A stretch of 64,000 nt of DNA, taken from positions 434,001 to 498,000 of the forward strand of contig NZ_JAUSWH010000002.1 in the NCBI RefSeq assembly GCF_030815125.1, given 5' to 3'. This DNA is from Allorhizobium paknamense. GTDB lineage: Bacteria; Pseudomonadota; Alphaproteobacteria; Rhizobiales; Rhizobiaceae. The notes under the pieces were generated by a model. The model ran no database searches, was not told the origin of the DNA, and saw only the letters and a list, made by a program, of their open reading frames with translations. Made by a program: the position numbers and the translations under genes. Shown one piece after another: positions 19,776 through 55,890 of the stretch. The number at the start of each line of letters is the position of its first letter. Position 1 is the first letter of the stretch.

Positions 19776-20735
19776 CTATAAAATCAGGCGGGCCGCGGCG
19801 GCGCCAAGGGCGGCGGGAAAGCCGAGCACAATGGTGGCCATGGCCATTTCGAAGGCGGCGGTGTCATCCAGCCGGCCAAAACTCCAGAGCAGATAGGCGC
19901 TGATCGCCAGCGCCACGACATAGCCGGGCAAGGTGAAGCGGATCAGCGCATGCCAGCCGGGCACACCCTTTTCCAGCCGATGGCCGCCGGGAAAGGAAAG
20001 CGCGTAGACGAAGCCGTGCATCAGCAGAATGGACAGGATCATCAGCGCCAGCGCATGCCAGGGCGTCATCTTGTAGGCGATCAGGATCATCTCCTCGGTG
20101 GGCGCCATGTTGAAAGCCAGAAACAGCGCCCCGACCGCCATCATCGCCAGTTCCACCGCATAGCTGGTTTCCTCAGATCGTTTACGCGCATTTCCGGAGG
20201 GAAAACCGGCTTCCACTTTTTCTGGAAATGCTCTGGTGTTCGCTTCCGTTGCGTCATCGTCTTCCTCGCTTTCCTGGTGCTGGCCCAGCTGGCTGCGCCC
20301 CAGCATGGCGCCAATGCTGGCCGGCACGGCCTGTATGGCGATCTTGCCGAGCCATTCACTCACCGACATATCGAAGGTTATGACTCCGAAAACGGCAAGA
20401 ATCATGGCGCTGGCGATGATGCCGAGCGCATAGGCGATCACAGCGTCGCGAGCAGCATCCGTCCAGCTGACGGTACGCTCGAAGCCGATGCGCCGGGCCA
20501 ATAGAATGAGAAGGGGAAGGTTGATCACCAGCAGCAGGATCAGCCGCCAGCGATCCATGTAAAAGCCGAGAAACCACATTTCCATGGTCATCAGCATGGG
20601 AAGGGAGAAGAGCAGAGATCCCGCCAGCCCCCGGGCCAACCCGCTGAGATGCAGCGATGAGGAGGGCTTATGCGTGTCTGCCCTCAGATCGTCCGTTGCG
20701 GATTTTCGGTGTGCCTCGCTCTGATATGTCTGCAT
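19776..20735 (-). CDS. TIGR02587-like polytopic membrane protein with an inserted repeat peptide
   Basis: 319 residues with about seven hydrophobic segments. Recognisable family text is SGLARGLAGSLLFSLPMLMT near the N-terminus and ALFLAFNMAPTEEMILIAY late in the protein, as in TIGR02587 proteins. Between transmembrane segments, at about residues 167-187, lies the peptide NTRAFPEKVEAGFPSGNARK, which is not membrane-like and is encoded by a 46-bp palindromic repeat (20187-20232) that also occurs in intergenic DNA. It falls in an acidic hydrophilic loop (ESEEDDDATEA), where an insertion would be tolerated. Coupled with the TIGR02588 gene downstream. Confidence 0.78.
   Translation of the reverse strand: MQTYQSEAHRKSATDDLRADTHKPSSSLHLSGLARGLAGSLLFSLPMLMTMEMWFLGFYMDRWRLILLLVINLPLLILLARRIGFERTVSWTDAARDAVIAYALGIIASAMILAVFGVITFDMSVSEWLGKIAIQAVPASIGAMLGRSQLGQHQESEEDDDATEANTRAFPEKVEAGFPSGNARKRSEETSYAVELAMMAVGALFLAFNMAPTEEMILIAYKMTPWHALALMILSILLMHGFVYALSFPGGHRLEKGVPGWHALIRFTLPGYVVALAISAYLLWSFGRLDDTAAFEMAMATIVLGFPAALGAAAARLIL
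20187..20232 (-). repeat. 46-bp palindromic repeat inside a coding region (family B copy)
   Basis: On the minus strand it reads AGCATTTCCAG ... GTCCGG-type core ... GGAAATGCG, with 8-base complementary arms GCATTTCC/GGAAATGC. It is nearly identical to the intergenic copies at 27748-27793 and 49632-49789. It is translated here in the frame that gives AFPEKVEAGFPSGNA, without a stop. Confidence 0.9.
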
Positions 20736-20743
20736 GAAACATC

Positions 20744-20776
20744 CTCTGGCCGCTTAAAGTGTTGAGGCGGCCAGAG
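20744..20776 (-). terminator. Hairpin between the DEAD-box helicase and TIGR02587 genes
   Basis: Perfect 10-base arms CTCTGGCCGC and GCGGCCAGAG in the 60-base gap. There is only a weak T-rich tail on the minus strand, so it could be a leaky terminator or an mRNA-processing hairpin between the two same-strand genes. Confidence 0.5.
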
Positions 20777-27747: not shown

Positions 27748-27847
27748 AGCATTTCCAGGAAAAGTGGTAACCGGTTTTCCGTCCGGAAATGCGTAGAAAC
27801 AAAGAGTTAGAGCGTTTCAATGTTTCCGTGAAACAATGAAACGCTCT
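27748..27847. repeat. Family B palindrome plus GAGCGTTTC hairpin
   Basis: In the 352-base gap upstream of the receptor gene. The 46-bp repeat (27748-27793, arms GCATTTCC/GGAAATGC) is followed by arms AGAGCGTTTCA (27809-27819) and TGAAACGCTCT (27837-27847). The same pair of modules occurs at 22992-23095 on the opposite strand, so they form a composite unit of about 100 bp. The rest of the gap shows no gene. Confidence 0.85.
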
Positions 27848-44700: not shown

Positions 44701-45984
44701 TCAGCGGGAGAAAGCGGTCATCCTTTCTTTTTGCGCGCTGAGGTGAGCGGCAAGTTGTGCGTGCCGTCGCTGCCAGAAGGGCCGGTCCGGCCACCGCCGC
44801 TCCATGCCGTACCAGGCATGGATATGGTCGCAATAGGCTGTCCATATCGGCTGTAATTGCGCCTGATAATCGATAAGCGCATCTGTGTTGCCTTGAAGAA
44901 AACGATCTGCGGCTTCCGCTGCCGCAAGGCCCGTGTAGAGCGCATTGAACAGGCCCTGTGCCGAGAGCGGATCGAAGGCCAGTGCGGCATCGCCGACGGC
45001 CATCCAGCCGGAGCCTGTTGACACTGCGAGAACACTTCCCCGTGTTTCCGCAGGTAAAACCGGCTCCCACTTTTCCTGGAAACACTCCTGGTTTTTACGT
45101 GTTTCCGGACAGAAAACCGGAGCCCACTTTTCCTGGAAACACTTTAACCGGCTCGACTGGGCAGCCCGGTAGCCAAGCGCCGTGCCGGGGTGAAAGCCGC
45201 TGTTTTCGATTAGTTGCGAGAGATGGGGCTGTGCCATGGCGCGCTGCATCAACCCCTCTACCGAGGTCACCCCCGCATCCGCGGCAAGGTCGGCATCGGT
45301 GTGAAAGGCAATCACCCGCCTACCGCCGGGAAGCGGCGCGCTGTACCACCAGCCGTCCGGCTCTGCTTCAATGAAGGTCGTTCCGGCGGTGCGGTCTGCT
45401 GTATCGTCACCGTGGAGATAGCTGCAAACCAACCGGTCCTGCACCTGCCGCTCCACCTTGAAATGCCGGGCAAGACCCGATGCCCGTCCCCCGGCGTCGA
45501 TCAGCAGTCTTGCCGTGGCGGACATGGTTTTGCCGTTTGTTCCAATGGCGAGCTCAACCCGCCAGCCATCCGCTTCCCGCCCCACATTCAAGGCGCGGGC
45601 GGGCTGAAGAAGTGCTGCACCGCGCCCCACGGCCTGCTGGCGCAGCCAGAGATCGAAACGGGCGCGGTCCAGATGCCAGCCCGGCCCATCGGGATCGCGC
45701 AGGCCGTCAGCCTCGAAGCCCAACTCCGCACCCCAGAAGGCGCGGCTGGCATGGCAGGGGGCATGGCCCTCTGCCAGGAATGATTCCCAGAGCCCCATGT
45801 CACGGAAAAGCCGCCGGGCTGCCGGGGCAAGCGATTCGCCAACCGTCACGCTTTGCCCGGACTGCCGCTCGATCAGAAGAACCCGGTAAAAGGGCGCGAG
45901 ATTGAGCGCGAGACAGGCGCCTGCCGGTCCCGCGCCGATGATGATGGCGTCCGCGTCGATCACGCCGTTTGCGGCGTCTTTCAT
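44701..45984 (-). CDS. lodB: LodB-like FAD-dependent oxidoreductase with two inserted repeat peptides
   Basis: A 427-residue flavoprotein of the tryptophan-halogenase/PHBH type: AIIIGAGPAGACLALNLA (dinucleotide motif), SVTVGESLAPAARRLF, and late GWMAVGDAALAFDPLSAQG (FAD ribose). It follows the LodA-like gene with an ATGA overlap; LodB flavoproteins are needed to make the cysteine tryptophylquinone of LodA. Residues about 281-316 hold two copies of a CFQEKW(A/E)PV...PET peptide encoded by tandem 46-bp palindromic repeats, just before the GDAA motif. The frame stays open, but folding may be affected. Confidence 0.82.
   Translation of the reverse strand: MKDAANGVIDADAIIIGAGPAGACLALNLAPFYRVLLIERQSGQSVTVGESLAPAARRLFRDMGLWESFLAEGHAPCHASRAFWGAELGFEADGLRDPDGPGWHLDRARFDLWLRQQAVGRGAALLQPARALNVGREADGWRVELAIGTNGKTMSATARLLIDAGGRASGLARHFKVERQVQDRLVCSYLHGDDTADRTAGTTFIEAEPDGWWYSAPLPGGRRVIAFHTDADLAADAGVTSVEGLMQRAMAQPHLSQLIENSGFHPGTALGYRAAQSSRLKCFQEKWAPVFCPETRKNQECFQEKWEPVLPAETRGSVLAVSTGSGWMAVGDAALAFDPLSAQGLFNALYTGLAAAEAADRFLQGNTDALIDYQAQLQPIWTAYCDHIHAWYGMERRWPDRPFWQRRHAQLAAHLSAQKERMTAFSR
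45041..45143 (-). repeat. Two tandem 46-bp palindromic repeats inside lodB
   Basis: Units at 45041-45086 and 45098-45143, period 57 bp (19 codons). On the minus strand each reads AGTGTTTCCAG ... GTCCGG-like core ... GGAAACACG. The arms GTGTTTCC/GGAAACAC differ from the intergenic GCATTTCC/GGAAATGC by paired changes. Both units are open in the lodB frame. Confidence 0.9.
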
Positions 45985-47888
45985 GCCCGGTTGTGGTCTG
46001 GTCTGCCGATCAGGAGGCACATTTTATCGATGGTTGTTAGATCCGTATCAGGTGCATCGTCCTGCTCGACAGGTTTCGAGATCAGCCGGTGCTCGTCTTC
46101 TACCTCAATCAGCGCCGGAAATAGAGCTTTTCCGGTTTCGTCCTCCGGGCCGGGCCGCACTTCCACCACGCCCAGATGGTCGAAGTGATGGATCATGCGA
46201 TTGATCTGCTCGGTATAGCCACTTTTCAGGCCAAGCGGCTCTATCCATGAGGCGCGCCGGGCAAAGGCGGCCAGCCGGTCCTCCTTCGGCAGGCTTGCAT
46301 CCATGACGAGGGTATAATCCTGCTTGGTCAGCACTTCATTCGGCACGCGGGCGGGCCAGAAGGTCGGCACGTTGGGATCATAGGTGGAGGTGTAACCTGA
46401 CCGGCAGCTCGCGGTGTCCGTCTGCCACGGTACGGCCATCCAGCGGGTTATTCCGCCCGGAATTTGGCCGCCAAGAGGACCATTTGGACCTTTCGCCCCG
46501 TCTTTTGTCAGAATGGCGCCGAGACCGGGTTCCACCCAACCCTTTGGCGCATGCTTGAAGCGGAACGGTTCCATGTACATGGTGGTGTAGCGTACCGGCC
46601 ATGTCATCTCGCAGCCGGGATGGAAGGCATCCGCCAAGCAGAAATCGAGCGCCGCACGCGTCAGAACATCGCCCTGTTCCACCAACGGCACCTCATCGAA
46701 TGTGTGATAGACGGGCGCTGTTCCCCAGTCATCGATGAACTCGCCCTTTACCCATTGGTCCAGCATGGCAAGCTGCGTCACAGACAGCGTGCTATGCTGC
46801 CTTGGAGTTTTCGCGGGCGGATAGCTCATGGCGTCGCCATAGAGCCAAGGCCAGGGAACGGGCGACCAGGAATCCGTTTCGTCATGGCGGAAATTGTTCT
46901 TGATCACCCTTCGGAACTCTTCGCGGCTGGGGCTTTTGTTCCGCAGCCGGTCGATCCAGTCTTCGCTTGAGAAATCATAGGGCGATCCCCAGCCGAAACC
47001 CGCTGCAAAACCGGCATTGACCCATTGCAGCCCGCTCATCCGCTCAAAGATCGGGTAGAGATCGTTGGTAAAGGAGGGAAGCTCAGGCTGTTTCAGCGTC
47101 CCGGCCTTGATCGCCACGTCCCGCATCAGATCCCACAGGGTGCGCACGGATTTGCGCTGCGGTCCGTAATTGGGCGGGGCTACTACGATCCAGGCGGGCG
47201 TGACGGGCAGGTGCGCGCCTTCGAAGATCACTTCCGCCGTCACCGGACCATCGGAGACATCGTCATGCCAGCCTTCATTGTTGCCGAAGGTAATGGCGAC
47301 GCTTTTGTCGTAGGAGGCGGATTTTCCGCGCCCGCCGGTGACCAGAAGACGCGCATCCTTTTCGCACCACATGCGGCCGAGATAGACCGGATCGCCCTGA
47401 TGCATGAATTTGCCCGCCACCATATCGACGCTTTGCTTTCCGTGGCCCGCATGCAGGCGGTGCTCGCCGGCATCCAGAACCAGAGCGGCCCGATCTGAAA
47501 CGGTAGGATTGCGCAGCGTGGTCGGAGTGGCAAGGGCGGCTTCGGGAATATCGAGCGCGATCTGGAAACCGTACCAGGCGGCCTTGCGATTGGCGAGGTG
47601 CACCTGCCAGCGGATATCGGCGCCGCTTCCCGAAGCAGACAGTTCCTTCACAATCTGTCCGTCCTCATTGACACCGTAAATCCGGAAACGGGCCGCCTGC
47701 GGCAGCAGCCGTCCCTCTTTGTCGCGATAGGGATTGGGCGCTCCGTCCTTGACGATCACCGGCAGCGGATCCGGTACTTCCGGGCCGAGAACATAGCCTT
47801 CCGGCGCATTGCCGACACGGGCTATGCCGATAGCCGGATAGATGACAGCCTTGACGATCTTGCTGGACGTGGTTTCTGCTGCAGCCAT
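45981..47888 (-). CDS. lodA: LodA-like cysteine tryptophylquinone amino-acid oxidase
   Basis: A 635-residue protein of the LodA/GoxA family: quinoproteins that oxidise lysine, glycine or another amino acid to an aldehyde or keto acid, releasing ammonia and hydrogen peroxide. It opens IYPAIGIARVGNAPEGYVLG as the family does and has HPGCEMTWPVRY at about 423-434. The likely cofactor pair is Cys495 (VPWQTDTASC) and Trp511 (VPTFWPARVPNEVL), inferred by motif. No signal peptide is seen with the ATG at 47888, which has AAGGCGGGA upstream. A partner LodB-like gene overlaps its 3' end. Confidence 0.85.
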   Translation of the reverse strand: MAAAETTSSKIVKAVIYPAIGIARVGNAPEGYVLGPEVPDPLPVIVKDGAPNPYRDKEGRLLPQAARFRIYGVNEDGQIVKELSASGSGADIRWQVHLANRKAAWYGFQIALDIPEAALATPTTLRNPTVSDRAALVLDAGEHRLHAGHGKQSVDMVAGKFMHQGDPVYLGRMWCEKDARLLVTGGRGKSASYDKSVAITFGNNEGWHDDVSDGPVTAEVIFEGAHLPVTPAWIVVAPPNYGPQRKSVRTLWDLMRDVAIKAGTLKQPELPSFTNDLYPIFERMSGLQWVNAGFAAGFGWGSPYDFSSEDWIDRLRNKSPSREEFRRVIKNNFRHDETDSWSPVPWPWLYGDAMSYPPAKTPRQHSTLSVTQLAMLDQWVKGEFIDDWGTAPVYHTFDEVPLVEQGDVLTRAALDFCLADAFHPGCEMTWPVRYTTMYMEPFRFKHAPKGWVEPGLGAILTKDGAKGPNGPLGGQIPGGITRWMAVPWQTDTASCRSGYTSTYDPNVPTFWPARVPNEVLTKQDYTLVMDASLPKEDRLAAFARRASWIEPLGLKSGYTEQINRMIHHFDHLGVVEVRPGPEDETGKALFPALIEVEDEHRLISKPVEQDDAPDTDLTTIDKMCLLIGRPDHNRA

Positions 47889-48008
47889 GAAAAATCCCGC
47901 CTTGAAATAAGGGTGAAGATGAAAAGGGAATGACCAAGGGAATGCATGCGCAAAGCCCCTTCCATGCTCCTCCTGAAGGGATGATGCGCGTATGAATGTC
48001 AGGATGCA

Positions 48009-48067
48009 CTTATAAAGGGTGCTCTGTCCTGCTGCAATCCCGTGCTTGGATAGGACCAATTTTGGTC
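48009..48067 (-). promoter_or_regulatory. Promoter and palindromic site upstream of lodAB
   Basis: On the minus strand TTGCAG (48032-48037), 17 bases, TATAAG (48009-48014) gives a sigma-70-like promoter. Sixteen bases upstream of the -35 box stands the palindrome GACCAA TT TTGGTC (48054-48067), where an activator of the Lrp or LysR type could bind. The rest of the 333-base divergent gap to the FAD-linked dehydrogenase shows nothing recognisable. Confidence 0.5.
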
Positions 48068-48221: not shown

Positions 48222-49631
48222 ATGAGCCGCAAGGATGTGATCGCGGGGCCTCGCAATGAAGAAGGAATTGCCACGGTTCTCGGCCTGTTGAAGCAGCGCT
48301 TCGGGGAGCGGTTCCAGACCGGGCTCTCCTTTCGTGAGCAGCATGCCCACACCACCACCTATCTGCCGGCGCAATTGCCCGATGGCGTGGTTTTCGTGGA
48401 AAGTGCCGATGAGGTGCAGGCGGTGGTGAAGGCCTGTGCCGAGCACAAGGTGCCGATGGTGCCCTTTGGCGTCGGCACCTCGCTGGAGGCGCAGGTCAAT
48501 GCCGCCCATGGCGGAATTTCCATTGATTTCAGCCGAATGGACAAGGTTCTGGAGGTTAATGCCGAAGATCTGGATTGCACCGTGCAGCCGGGCGTGACGC
48601 GTGAGGCGCTGAACACCTATCTGCGCGATACCGGCCTGTTCTTCCCGATCGATCCCGGCGCCAATGCGACCATCGGCGGCATGGCCTCCACGCGAGCCTC
48701 CGGCACCAATGCCGTGCGCTATGGGACGATGAAGGACAATGTGCTGGCGCTGACCGTCGTCACCGCCAATGGCGAGGAGATCAGAACGGCCAGGCGTGCC
48801 CGCAAATCTTCGGCGGGCTACGATCTCACCCGGCTTTTCGTTGGCGCGGAGGGCACGCTTGGTGTGATCACGTCCGTGACCTTGCGCCTGCAAGGGATAC
48901 CGGAGAAGATCGGCGGCGGCATTTGCCAGTTTGCCGATGTCAAGGCGGCCTGCGATGCGGTGATCATGACCATTCAGCTCGGTATTCCGGTGGCGCGTAT
49001 CGAGCTTCTGGATGCCATGCAGGTCAGGGCCTGCAATGCCTATTCCAACCTGACGCTGCCGGAAAAGCCGACGCTCTTCCTGGAATTTCATGGCACGGAA
49101 CAGACGGTTGCCATGCAGTCCGAGCAATTTGCCGAGATTGCCCGGGAGTATGGCGCGGAAAACCTCCGCTTCACCTCCGATCCGGAAGAACGCGCCCAGA
49201 TGTGGAAGGCGCGGCACAACGCCTACTGGGCGGGCAGGGCACTTGCCCCGCATCTGAACGGCCTTTCCACCGATGTATGCGTGCCGATTTCGCGGCTGGC
49301 TGATTGCCTGGCGCAAACCCAGGCGGATATTGCCGAGACCGGGTTGCTGGCCCCCATTGTCGGCCATGTCGGCGATGGGAACTTTCACGTCCTTATTCTC
49401 TTCGATGACAAGGACGGTGCCGATGTCGACAAGGTCGAAGCCTTCCTGACGCGGCTCAACGCCCGGGCGCTGGCCATGGATGGCACCTGCACCGGCGAAC
49501 ACGGCGTAGGGCAGGGCAAGATGAGCTATCTGGAAGCCGAACTGGGTGGCGCGCTCGACGTGATGCGGCAGGTGAAGCGGGCGCTCGATCCCGACAATCT
49601 GTTCAATCCGGGCAAGATCTTCCGGTTGTAA
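48222..49631 (+). CDS. FAD-binding oxidase, D-lactate dehydrogenase (cytochrome)/GlcD type
   Basis: A 469-residue VAO-family flavoprotein. The PCMH FAD domain has VPMVPFGVGTSLEAQVNAAH and GANATIGGMASTRASGTNAVRY-type motifs. SAGYDLTRLFVGAEGTLGVI follows, and the C-terminal part carries IVGHVGDGNFHVLI and GTCTGEHGVGQGK, typical of D-lactate and glycolate oxidases. Substrate not certain. GGGAG stands six bases before the ATG. The stop codon abuts a tandem repeat array. Confidence 0.9.
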   Translation: MSRKDVIAGPRNEEGIATVLGLLKQRFGERFQTGLSFREQHAHTTTYLPAQLPDGVVFVESADEVQAVVKACAEHKVPMVPFGVGTSLEAQVNAAHGGISIDFSRMDKVLEVNAEDLDCTVQPGVTREALNTYLRDTGLFFPIDPGANATIGGMASTRASGTNAVRYGTMKDNVLALTVVTANGEEIRTARRARKSSAGYDLTRLFVGAEGTLGVITSVTLRLQGIPEKIGGGICQFADVKAACDAVIMTIQLGIPVARIELLDAMQVRACNAYSNLTLPEKPTLFLEFHGTEQTVAMQSEQFAEIAREYGAENLRFTSDPEERAQMWKARHNAYWAGRALAPHLNGLSTDVCVPISRLADCLAQTQADIAETGLLAPIVGHVGDGNFHVLILFDDKDGADVDKVEAFLTRLNARALAMDGTCTGEHGVGQGKMSYLEAELGGALDVMRQVKRALDPDNLFNPGKIFRL

Positions 49632-49789
49632 AGCATTTCCAGGGAAAGTGGTTTCCGGTTTCCCGTTCGGAAATGCGTAAAAACCAAAGCATTTCCAGGG
49701 AAAGTGGTCACCGGTTTCCCGTCCGGAAATGCGGTAAGACCAAAGCATTTCCAGGGAAAGTGGTCACCGGTTTCCCGTCCGGAAATGCG
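49632..49789 (+). repeat. Three tandem 46-bp palindromic repeats
   Basis: Units at 49632-49677, 49688-49733 and 49744-49789, period exactly 56 bp. Each runs AGCATTTCCAGGGAAAGTGG ... CCGGTTTCCCGT ... GGAAATGCG. Units two and three are identical over the 46 bp; unit one has four or so changes. The first unit follows directly on the TAA of the upstream gene. Confidence 0.93.
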
Positions 49790-55207: not shown

Positions 55208-55384
55208 GTGGTCCTATCTTTCTTTCAGTCTGCTTCTGGGTCTTAGATCTACAGCACCGAAGGGATGCTTATTCCTGTTTATAAGCCAAGCTGGCCGCTG
55301 GCGCAAAGGCAGAATGCTTTTGCCGTCAAGCTTTTGCAGTTTACGGCCTGTGAGCGGCAAATACTGGCAGAATGAGGGGGAAGT

Positions 55385-55705
55385 GGAGGTTTCTGTTGCC
55401 AGGTACCTCCGAACCCCGCCTTACAGTGCTACCCGCAAGGACTTAATTTGGGTTTCTGGCACCGCGATTAAGCAGCGACAGCGTAACCCTGAGCGTTGTT
55501 GTCGTTTGCAACTACTCTAGTGACCCGATAACGGCGGTATCATGCCGGGCAAAAGTTCGATCTTTACACCCTTGTCGATCCTATTTCGCCCCCATCAAAA
55601 GCCGGTCACAGTCCACGAGGTGGAGAGCCGACCGGTTTTTGGTGGAGGCGCCGGGTACCGCCCCCGGGTCCAATAGGTTTATTTCATCGACCGTTTATTG
55701 CCATA
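55385..55705 (-). ncRNA. ssrA: tmRNA (ssrA), circularly permuted two-piece form
   Basis: Read on the minus strand, the acceptor piece comes first. A T-arm-like hairpin CCGGG GGCGGTA CCCGG leads into CGCCTCC-ACCA, with the CCA end at 55640. After a spacer, the coding piece begins GGGGGCGAAATAGGATCGAC at 55593. GGGGGCG pairs with CGCCTCC and leaves a G-U wobble at the third pair, the alanine identity mark. The tag frame (55468-55509) reads ANDNNAQGYAVAA then TAA, after the resume context TAGTTGCAAACGAC. The permuted order is known in alphaproteobacteria. Outer ends are approximate; 55385 closes the last visible hairpin. Confidence 0.9.
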
Positions 55706-55730
55706 GCCGATGCAAGCACCGGCATGCTTC

Positions 55731-55759
55731 ATATAGGTTGTCAGAGCGGCGATGAAAAG
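55731..55759 (-). promoter_or_regulatory. Probable ssrA promoter
   Basis: On the minus strand CTTTTC (55754-55759), 17 bases, CTATAT (55731-55736). The -10 box is a perfect match to the rhizobial consensus CTTGAC-N17-CTATAT; the -35 box is partial. It would start RNA about 25 bases before the acceptor piece. Confidence 0.6.
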
Positions 55760-55890
55760 AGGTTTCGCGCGCTTTATGACGGGCAGGTGACCGTTGTCTC
55801 ACGAAGCTGTTGACGAAGGTCGGGCGAACCCTCGCCGTTTCAGGGGATTTTGCTATAAGGAAGCGGAGGTGTCGGAGATGGAATGCCGCA

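Follow-up and report, generated by a model that had tools for sequence, protein, structure and literature searches.

The window analysed here is a 64,000-nucleotide stretch of the Allorhizobium paknamense genome (5,334,491 bp in 46 contigs), equating to positions 434001–498000 of contig 2. We focused on a flavoprotein gene at 44701..46020 (reverse strand, stop codon included; open reading frame 44704–46020). The encoded protein of 439 residues matches the Pfam families Trp_halogenase, FAD_binding_3 and DAO. NCBIfam scores were 224.8 bits for GoxB and 217.1 bits for LodB. Both fall below the equivalog cut-offs of 400 bits. Hence, we refer to the product as a LodB/GoxB-like FAD flavoprotein. Directly upstream, and overlapping the flavoprotein reading frame, is a gene for a GoxA/LodA-like quinoprotein (45981..48059, reverse strand). 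This has both LodA_N and LodA_C Pfam domains and scored 405.6 bits with the GoxA model, for which the cut-off is 750. Adjacency to a LodA/GoxA-type gene, one of our two tests of membership in the LodB/GoxB group, is seen at 45981–48059. According to two reports, the partner quinoprotein depends on a flavoprotein of this type (PMC3948610, PMC7876137). In a Foldseek search with a model of the flavoprotein, the top matches were mostly FAD-dependent halogenases and QhpG ranked 15th. A neighbouring gene encodes a UvrD-type helicase; the closest named protein is from Allorhizobium undicola (96%). The window also contains a permuted alphaproteobacterial tmRNA at 55382–55762 (reverse strand; RF01849, 308.9 bits).

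Two palindromic units of 46 nt lie within the flavoprotein gene, at 45041..45086 and 45098..45143 (both forward strand). The units are 87% identical, are 57 bp apart and have the GTGTTTCC/GGAAACAC arm type. The original prediction was of two such copies inside lodB, with the reading frame kept, and the frame is indeed open across both. It had also placed about 36 added residues at 281–316. Alignment with homologues moves and enlarges this segment to 39 residues, 290–328, and agrees with the expectation that nearly all homologues lack it. No residues align to 290–328 in any of 120 homologues (the best 120 of 2583 listed at E 1e-30 or better). Similarly, the stretch from residue 288 to 344 has 18 residues in 119 of these homologues, 24 in the other and 57 in the flavoprotein. 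The linker lengths and the empty positions together define an in-frame block of 39 codons, or 117 bp, at 45037..45153 (reverse strand; SRLKCFQEKWAPVFCPETRKNQECFQEKWEPVLPAETRG). Conceivably, the block is an ancestral loop, lost from the homologues, that resembles the repeat by chance. The open frame fits this idea and nothing else does. Conversely, no homologue among the 120 has the block, and DNA of the region has at least 50 further matches in the genome. We regard this explanation as extremely improbable.

A single unit forms an imperfect hairpin with 14 modelled pairs and an 11-nt loop. Thus, "palindrome" is apt in the sense of a hairpin-type repeat and does not hold in the strict sense. 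Folding of the coding-strand RNA from the pair region gave −46 kcal/mol (z −3.9), and none of 200 shuffles folded equally well. In the 117-bp block, frame 0 alone is open; each of the other two coding-strand frames contains a stop. The AlphaFold2 model of the flavoprotein has a mean pLDDT of 86.4, with confident strands on both sides of the block. Values drop below 50 over exactly residues 290–328, as expected in any case for a block absent from every aligned sequence. At its right end (gggaagtgttctcg), the copy in the flavoprotein gene is without the usual right terminus. Compared with the consensus for their type, the two units differ at 3 and 1 scored positions, respectively, with three loop positions unscored. 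Units in thiD, the GT41 transferase gene and the nitrate reductase gene, described below, have no differences at scored positions. Hence, the flavoprotein insertion looks older. Conversely, because units identical to the family consensus exist, some insertions are probably recent.

Other units occur in the window. A single unit at 20187..20232 (forward strand) is inside an open frame for a DUF2391 (TIGR02587-type) membrane protein (19779–20753, reverse strand), where it falls in an acidic linker of variable length. A second single unit, of the GCATTTCC arm type, is at 27748..27793 (reverse strand) and no long open frame crosses it. A three-unit array at 49632..49789 (reverse strand) begins directly past the 3′ end of an open reading frame (48222–49631, forward strand). 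Weaker matches to the repeat are also present. The repeat had been said to fill intergenic gaps in this region. This is true only in part, since the unit at 20187–20232, like the pair, is inside a reading frame. We rejected the possibility of a known Rfam RNA; at gathering thresholds, a search of the window returned the tmRNA only.

The repeat is abundant in the genome. A 121-bp stretch spanning the pair had 50 further matches, some overlapping, at E ≤5.5e-4 (best 1.2e-31; 40 of 264 candidates scored). We then derived a covariance model from 76 units; each of the 150 candidates scored with this model was a match, at E 1.7e-15 or better. Since these were 150 of 5046 candidates from a loose search, the resulting figure of at least 150 units is a lower bound. 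The genome-wide search suggested at the outset thus supports the original reading, as do the in-frame copies in at least seven other conserved genes that are detailed below. Chance resemblance is ruled out by the 50 or more DNA matches together with the covariance model hits. In 129 stretches of this genome, the window among them, we identified 150 arrays comprising 191 units: 119 single, 23 double, 6 triple and 2 quadruple. Hence, we dropped the idea that the pair is one fixed element. A second, different hairpin of approximately 42 bp (AGAGTGTTTGCGTG...CACGCAAACACTCT in thiD) closes fuller copies, namely those in thiD (L022), gntR (L028) and the nitrate reductase gene (L168).

Units have one of two matching arm types, GTGTTTCC/GGAAACAC or GCATTTCC/GGAAATGC. 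Two pairs switch between them: CG/UA (29/20) and AU/GC (30/18). Cells changed on both sides numbered 43, compared to 17.5 ± 4.0 in shuffles. When the partners were slid by 1–3 columns, the share of paired cells fell from 92.7% to 63.8% or less. Of five covariation measures, two were unremarkable. Briefly, 4 pairs changed on both sides versus 3.1 in shuffles (a value reached by 147 of 500), and there were 15 further pair types versus 12.6 (reached by 31 of 500). Hence, the covariation comes down, in the main, to a single switch of the arms. The consensus unit is free of stop codons in all six frames, which is expected for 0.6–0.7% of base shuffles and 3.5–3.8% of pair-keeping shuffles. Among the individual units, 49 of 76 are stop-free in six frames and 27 have one closed frame.

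The arrays were screened for open frames running through them, scanned with Pfam and then aligned with homologues from genomes of the genus or, for MoeA, from plasmids. Among the 129 stretches and 150 arrays, eight genes have an in-frame copy that is missing in every aligned homologue. These encode the flavoprotein, ThiD, a GntR/FCD regulator, a GH88 hydrolase, a GT41 transferase, a GDPD, MoeA and a nitrate reductase. ThiD is longer by 53 residues that none of the 29 fetched homologues has, and the gene is found in 63 of 63 genus genomes. Consistent with this, the listed protein lengths are 333 residues for the predicted ThiD and 279 residues for that of A. undicola. For the GntR/FCD regulator (gene in 15/63 genomes), there are 53 extra residues compared to 9 of 11 fetched homologues and 52 compared to the other 2. 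The GH88 hydrolase (36/63 genomes) has 47, 52 or 53 extra residues in a variable loop, lacking in 19/19 fetched sequences. Both GT41 (58/63 genomes) and GDPD (29/63 genomes) have 20 extra residues that are without counterpart in 19/19 fetched homologues each. MoeA also has 20 extra residues, not found in 3/3 fetched plasmid homologues, and the nitrate reductase has 34, not found in 2/2. In thiD, moeA and other decorated genes, the parts of the frame before and after the insert both match the gene's own family.

We did not include the DUF2391 copy in the clean set, as the homologous linkers vary in length (5, 12 or 16 residues). Thirteen more open frames went uncounted, with the copy outside a recognised domain and gene ends not fixed (L044, L049, L202, L247, L167, L180, L207, L230, L232, L234, L032, L175 and L301), as did open frames with no Pfam hit, including L294 of another species. 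A typical bacterial genome is approximately 85–90% coding. If this fraction applies here, the presence of 8–9 of 150 arrays in genes would represent a strong depletion. We also looked for genes split out of frame. No split gene was found in 15 scanned pairs (from 39 candidates) when one Pfam family was sought on both sides; this search is weak because only 4 of the 15 pairs had a Pfam hit on both sides.

Insert lengths fall into a small number of classes. Inserts with one unit are 60 bp (GT41, GDPD and MoeA) and one unit plus the terminal hairpin measures 102 bp (nitrate reductase). The two-unit insert of the flavoprotein gene is 117 bp, and two units plus the hairpin come to approximately 159 bp (ThiD and GntR). 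That these are whole codons is largely built in, because an open frame defined the coding copies and lengths were counted in residues. The recurrence of module sizes of 57, 60 and 42 is the only part that is not. Spacing within tandem arrays was measured using a fixed core word as the anchor. In coding pairs, the spacing was 57 in 4 of 4 cases; elsewhere it was 57 in 3 of 37, with a range of 54–66. Spacing was divisible by three in 4/4 coding pairs and 10/37 others (Fisher 0.0099). With raw hit ends there was no difference (2/4 versus 11/37, Fisher 0.38), because shortened hits had moved the start positions. The coding copies also differ in arm subtype. The GTG/CAC type accounts for 7 of 8 coding copies versus 16 of 133 typed arrays elsewhere (Fisher 9e-6), the remaining 117 of 133 being GCA/TGC; 8 untyped arrays and the DUF2391 copy were excluded, and the sample was not random because the first 38 stretches were picked by likeness to the flavoprotein copy.

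Could the block instead be a functional protein segment, or an mRNA-regulating hairpin within the gene, maintained by selection? The coding-strand hairpin is strong, arm types match across the repeat family and the frame in use has stayed open although the units have diverged. However, matching arms are a property of the whole family, most arrays of which are outside the counted genes. Furthermore, the proteins that carry inserts are unrelated, as are the positions of the inserts within them, more than one frame is used, and no aligned homologue has kept an insert at these sites. We therefore consider selection for such a role very unlikely.

The original prediction left open whether the insertion is a tolerated loop or the mark of a decaying enzyme. 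On the decay view, the insertion would have inactivated the gene, and the frame would still be open for lack of time. The distribution of the gene leaves room for this. At a threshold of E 1e-40, the flavoprotein gene was found in no other genome among 63 of the genus, nor in any other among 394 of the family (at most 4 candidates scored per genome), so it may be dispensable. In addition, several substitutions in the units alter the encoded residue. Of 99 columns conserved at 95% or more, the flavoprotein departs from the consensus at 6. This is more than in 114 of 120 homologues, for which the median is 1 and the maximum 11, with six or more departures in 6/120. However, 3 of the 6 changes are I/V or L/I exchanges, and all 28 columns invariant over 121 aligned sequences are kept. 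At the sequence level, this is a mild sign that constraint on the flavoprotein may have relaxed slightly. Further points count against decay. The 439 codons contain no stop or frameshift, while the two unused coding-strand frames of the block do hold stops. LodA_N and LodA_C are both recognised in the GoxA-like partner. Finally, thiD, moeA and other genes carry similar inserts, flanked on either side by sequence that matches the gene's family. Decay is thus an unlikely explanation, if the least unlikely of the alternatives.

A tolerated loop insertion is better supported by the sequence and the structural model. The gene has no stop or frameshift, the invariant columns are intact and the model is confident beside the block; these observations favour tolerance. 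Our view is that the 117-bp block is very probably a tandem copy of a likely mobile palindromic repeat, and we predict that its translation yields a tolerated, disordered loop of 39 residues. We infer that the other decorated proteins, too, are probably translated and still working. The closest listed relatives of the flavoprotein are mostly from Azospirillum or are unnamed metagenome proteins (53–56%), with one Rhizobium sp. protein at 51%. Together with the lack of a match at E 1e-40 in the other genus and family genomes, this points to gain of the gene by transfer. Insertion of the repeat probably followed the transfer.

We examined the copies for signs of mobility. Both the GT41 and nitrate reductase gene copies are flanked by TAG on both sides, and DNA comparison revealed a clean target duplication at 2 of 6 sites. 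Of 157 anchored copies, 70 have TAG immediately before the unit. Where the four bases before the unit were tallied (116 anchored copies), CTAG occurred 25 times, TTAG 21, ATAG 11 and GTAG 5. Ends resembling AGAGTGTTT...AAACACTCT were seen in several of 20 copies inspected. The RAYT/Y1 transposase domain PF01797 had no matches in this genome; 5 of 14 control genomes were positive. A RAYT-driven GTAG REP was accordingly rejected, given 0 PF01797 matches and a GTAG tag in 5/116 copies with one end counted. With RAYT missing and no other transposase assigned to the element, the case for mobility is built on copy number and on homologues empty at the site. The TAG flanks, and the lack of a PF01797 match, suggest a MITE-like element moved by some other, putative transposase.

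A probable course of events is as follows. The putative transposase would insert the element at a YAG-type site and would probably leave a 3-bp duplication. Arrival of one unit would then lengthen the gene by 60 bp; extra tandem units would add 57 bp apiece and the optional terminal hairpin 42 bp, all of which equate to whole codons. Genes and intergenic DNA would both be entered, and selection would probably remove most insertions in genes. Those surviving would have whole-codon lengths, an open frame and, probably, a loop or linker site. After arrival, the insert would drift in sequence. Most likely, the block in the flavoprotein gene is a small mobile element that was copied in as a tandem.

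The repeat is not confined to A. paknamense. DNA matches to the two-unit thiD copy were found in 40 of 63 genus genomes, its own included (13 candidates scored per repeat-rich genome). In a plasmid collection, 32 records matched. The replicons are from seven genera: Sinorhizobium, Agrobacterium, Rhizobium, Ensifer, Shinella, Martelella and Phyllobacterium. Sinorhizobium replicons match the unit at 73–82%, and the collection carries no repeat annotation. At three plasmid sites inspected, the match overlaps the 3′ end of a gene by three bases; these sites were picked for having an annotated gene at the match, and annotation of the collection is incomplete. In another species of the genus (G020), a GluQRS frame (L297, 643–1653, forward strand) has a two-unit in-frame copy that is lacking in 3 of 3 fetched homologues. 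Separately, genome G054 has a 677-residue open frame (L294, 177–2207, reverse strand) with two units in frame at residues 251–286. This frame has no Pfam hit and matches ABC transporter permease regions of other replicons.

More speculatively, free-living rhizobia may run a live protein-coding palindrome system that is a continuing source of new protein segments. We hold this possibility tentatively. Such a system may depend on parts that are whole codons (the 57-bp unit, the 42-bp hairpin and a 3-bp duplication) and on a core free of stops in six frames, which could permit entry to a gene almost anywhere with the reading frame kept; again, this is a suggestion that we would not press. It might, with the same reservation, span housekeeping enzymes (ThiD, MoeA and GluQRS are examples) in addition to the flavoprotein. 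A 5.3-Mb, likely rhizobial genome carries several in-frame inserts, in enzymes that can be tested by simple complementation. An old question would thus become testable: are such inserts harmless, and are they able to become useful protein parts?

In-frame palindromic insertions have been discussed mainly for Rickettsia; Wolbachia and intragenic REPs provide further cases. Rickettsia palindromic elements (RPEs) were reportedly described by Ogata et al. in 2000 and 2002. In 2005, Ogata et al. are said to have extended this to Wolbachia, with protein-coding palindromic repeats that are in-frame palindromes outside Rickettsia. Two sources describe palindromic elements in frame inside Rickettsia proteins (PMC2229807, PMC10969869), and the first of these gives an RPE length of 105–146 bp (PMC2229807). 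The likeness is that both are short, multi-copy hairpin elements, some of which are in frame inside unrelated, conserved proteins. It is a likeness of behaviour, namely a hairpin repeat in frame in eight genes. The element described here differs in having a tandem 57-bp module and an optional 42-bp terminal hairpin, and in occupying a 5.3-Mb rhizobial genome. RPE-like behaviour, as originally proposed, is supported by the empty homologues, the genome-wide copies and the in-frame copies in at least seven other genes.

REPs are a further comparison. Intragenic GTAG/CGTC REPs are reported in several genera, being mostly intergenic with some genic, and REP dimers and groups encode 20–30 and up to 82 residues (PMC3733652). 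Our repeat is different; it has a 46-bp unit, only 5 of 116 anchored copies have GTAG just before the unit and no RAYT was found in the genome.

Among rhizobial repeats, the closest by description are the RIMEs, reportedly described by Osteras et al. in 1995. RIME1 is approximately 108 bp and comprises two large palindromes. This would fit a two-unit copy, such as the 117-bp block, but arrays of one to four units occur here. RIMEs are known as intergenic elements (PMC2573895). Our literature search, covering the leading matches in the open-licence part, found no report of in-frame protein-coding insertion of a rhizobial repeat. RIMEs are named for their intergenic position, whereas copies here are in frame inside genes, and the likeness is one of description. 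The best reading of our analysis is, therefore, a rhizobial, RIME-like repeat that appears to behave like the palindromic elements of Rickettsia.
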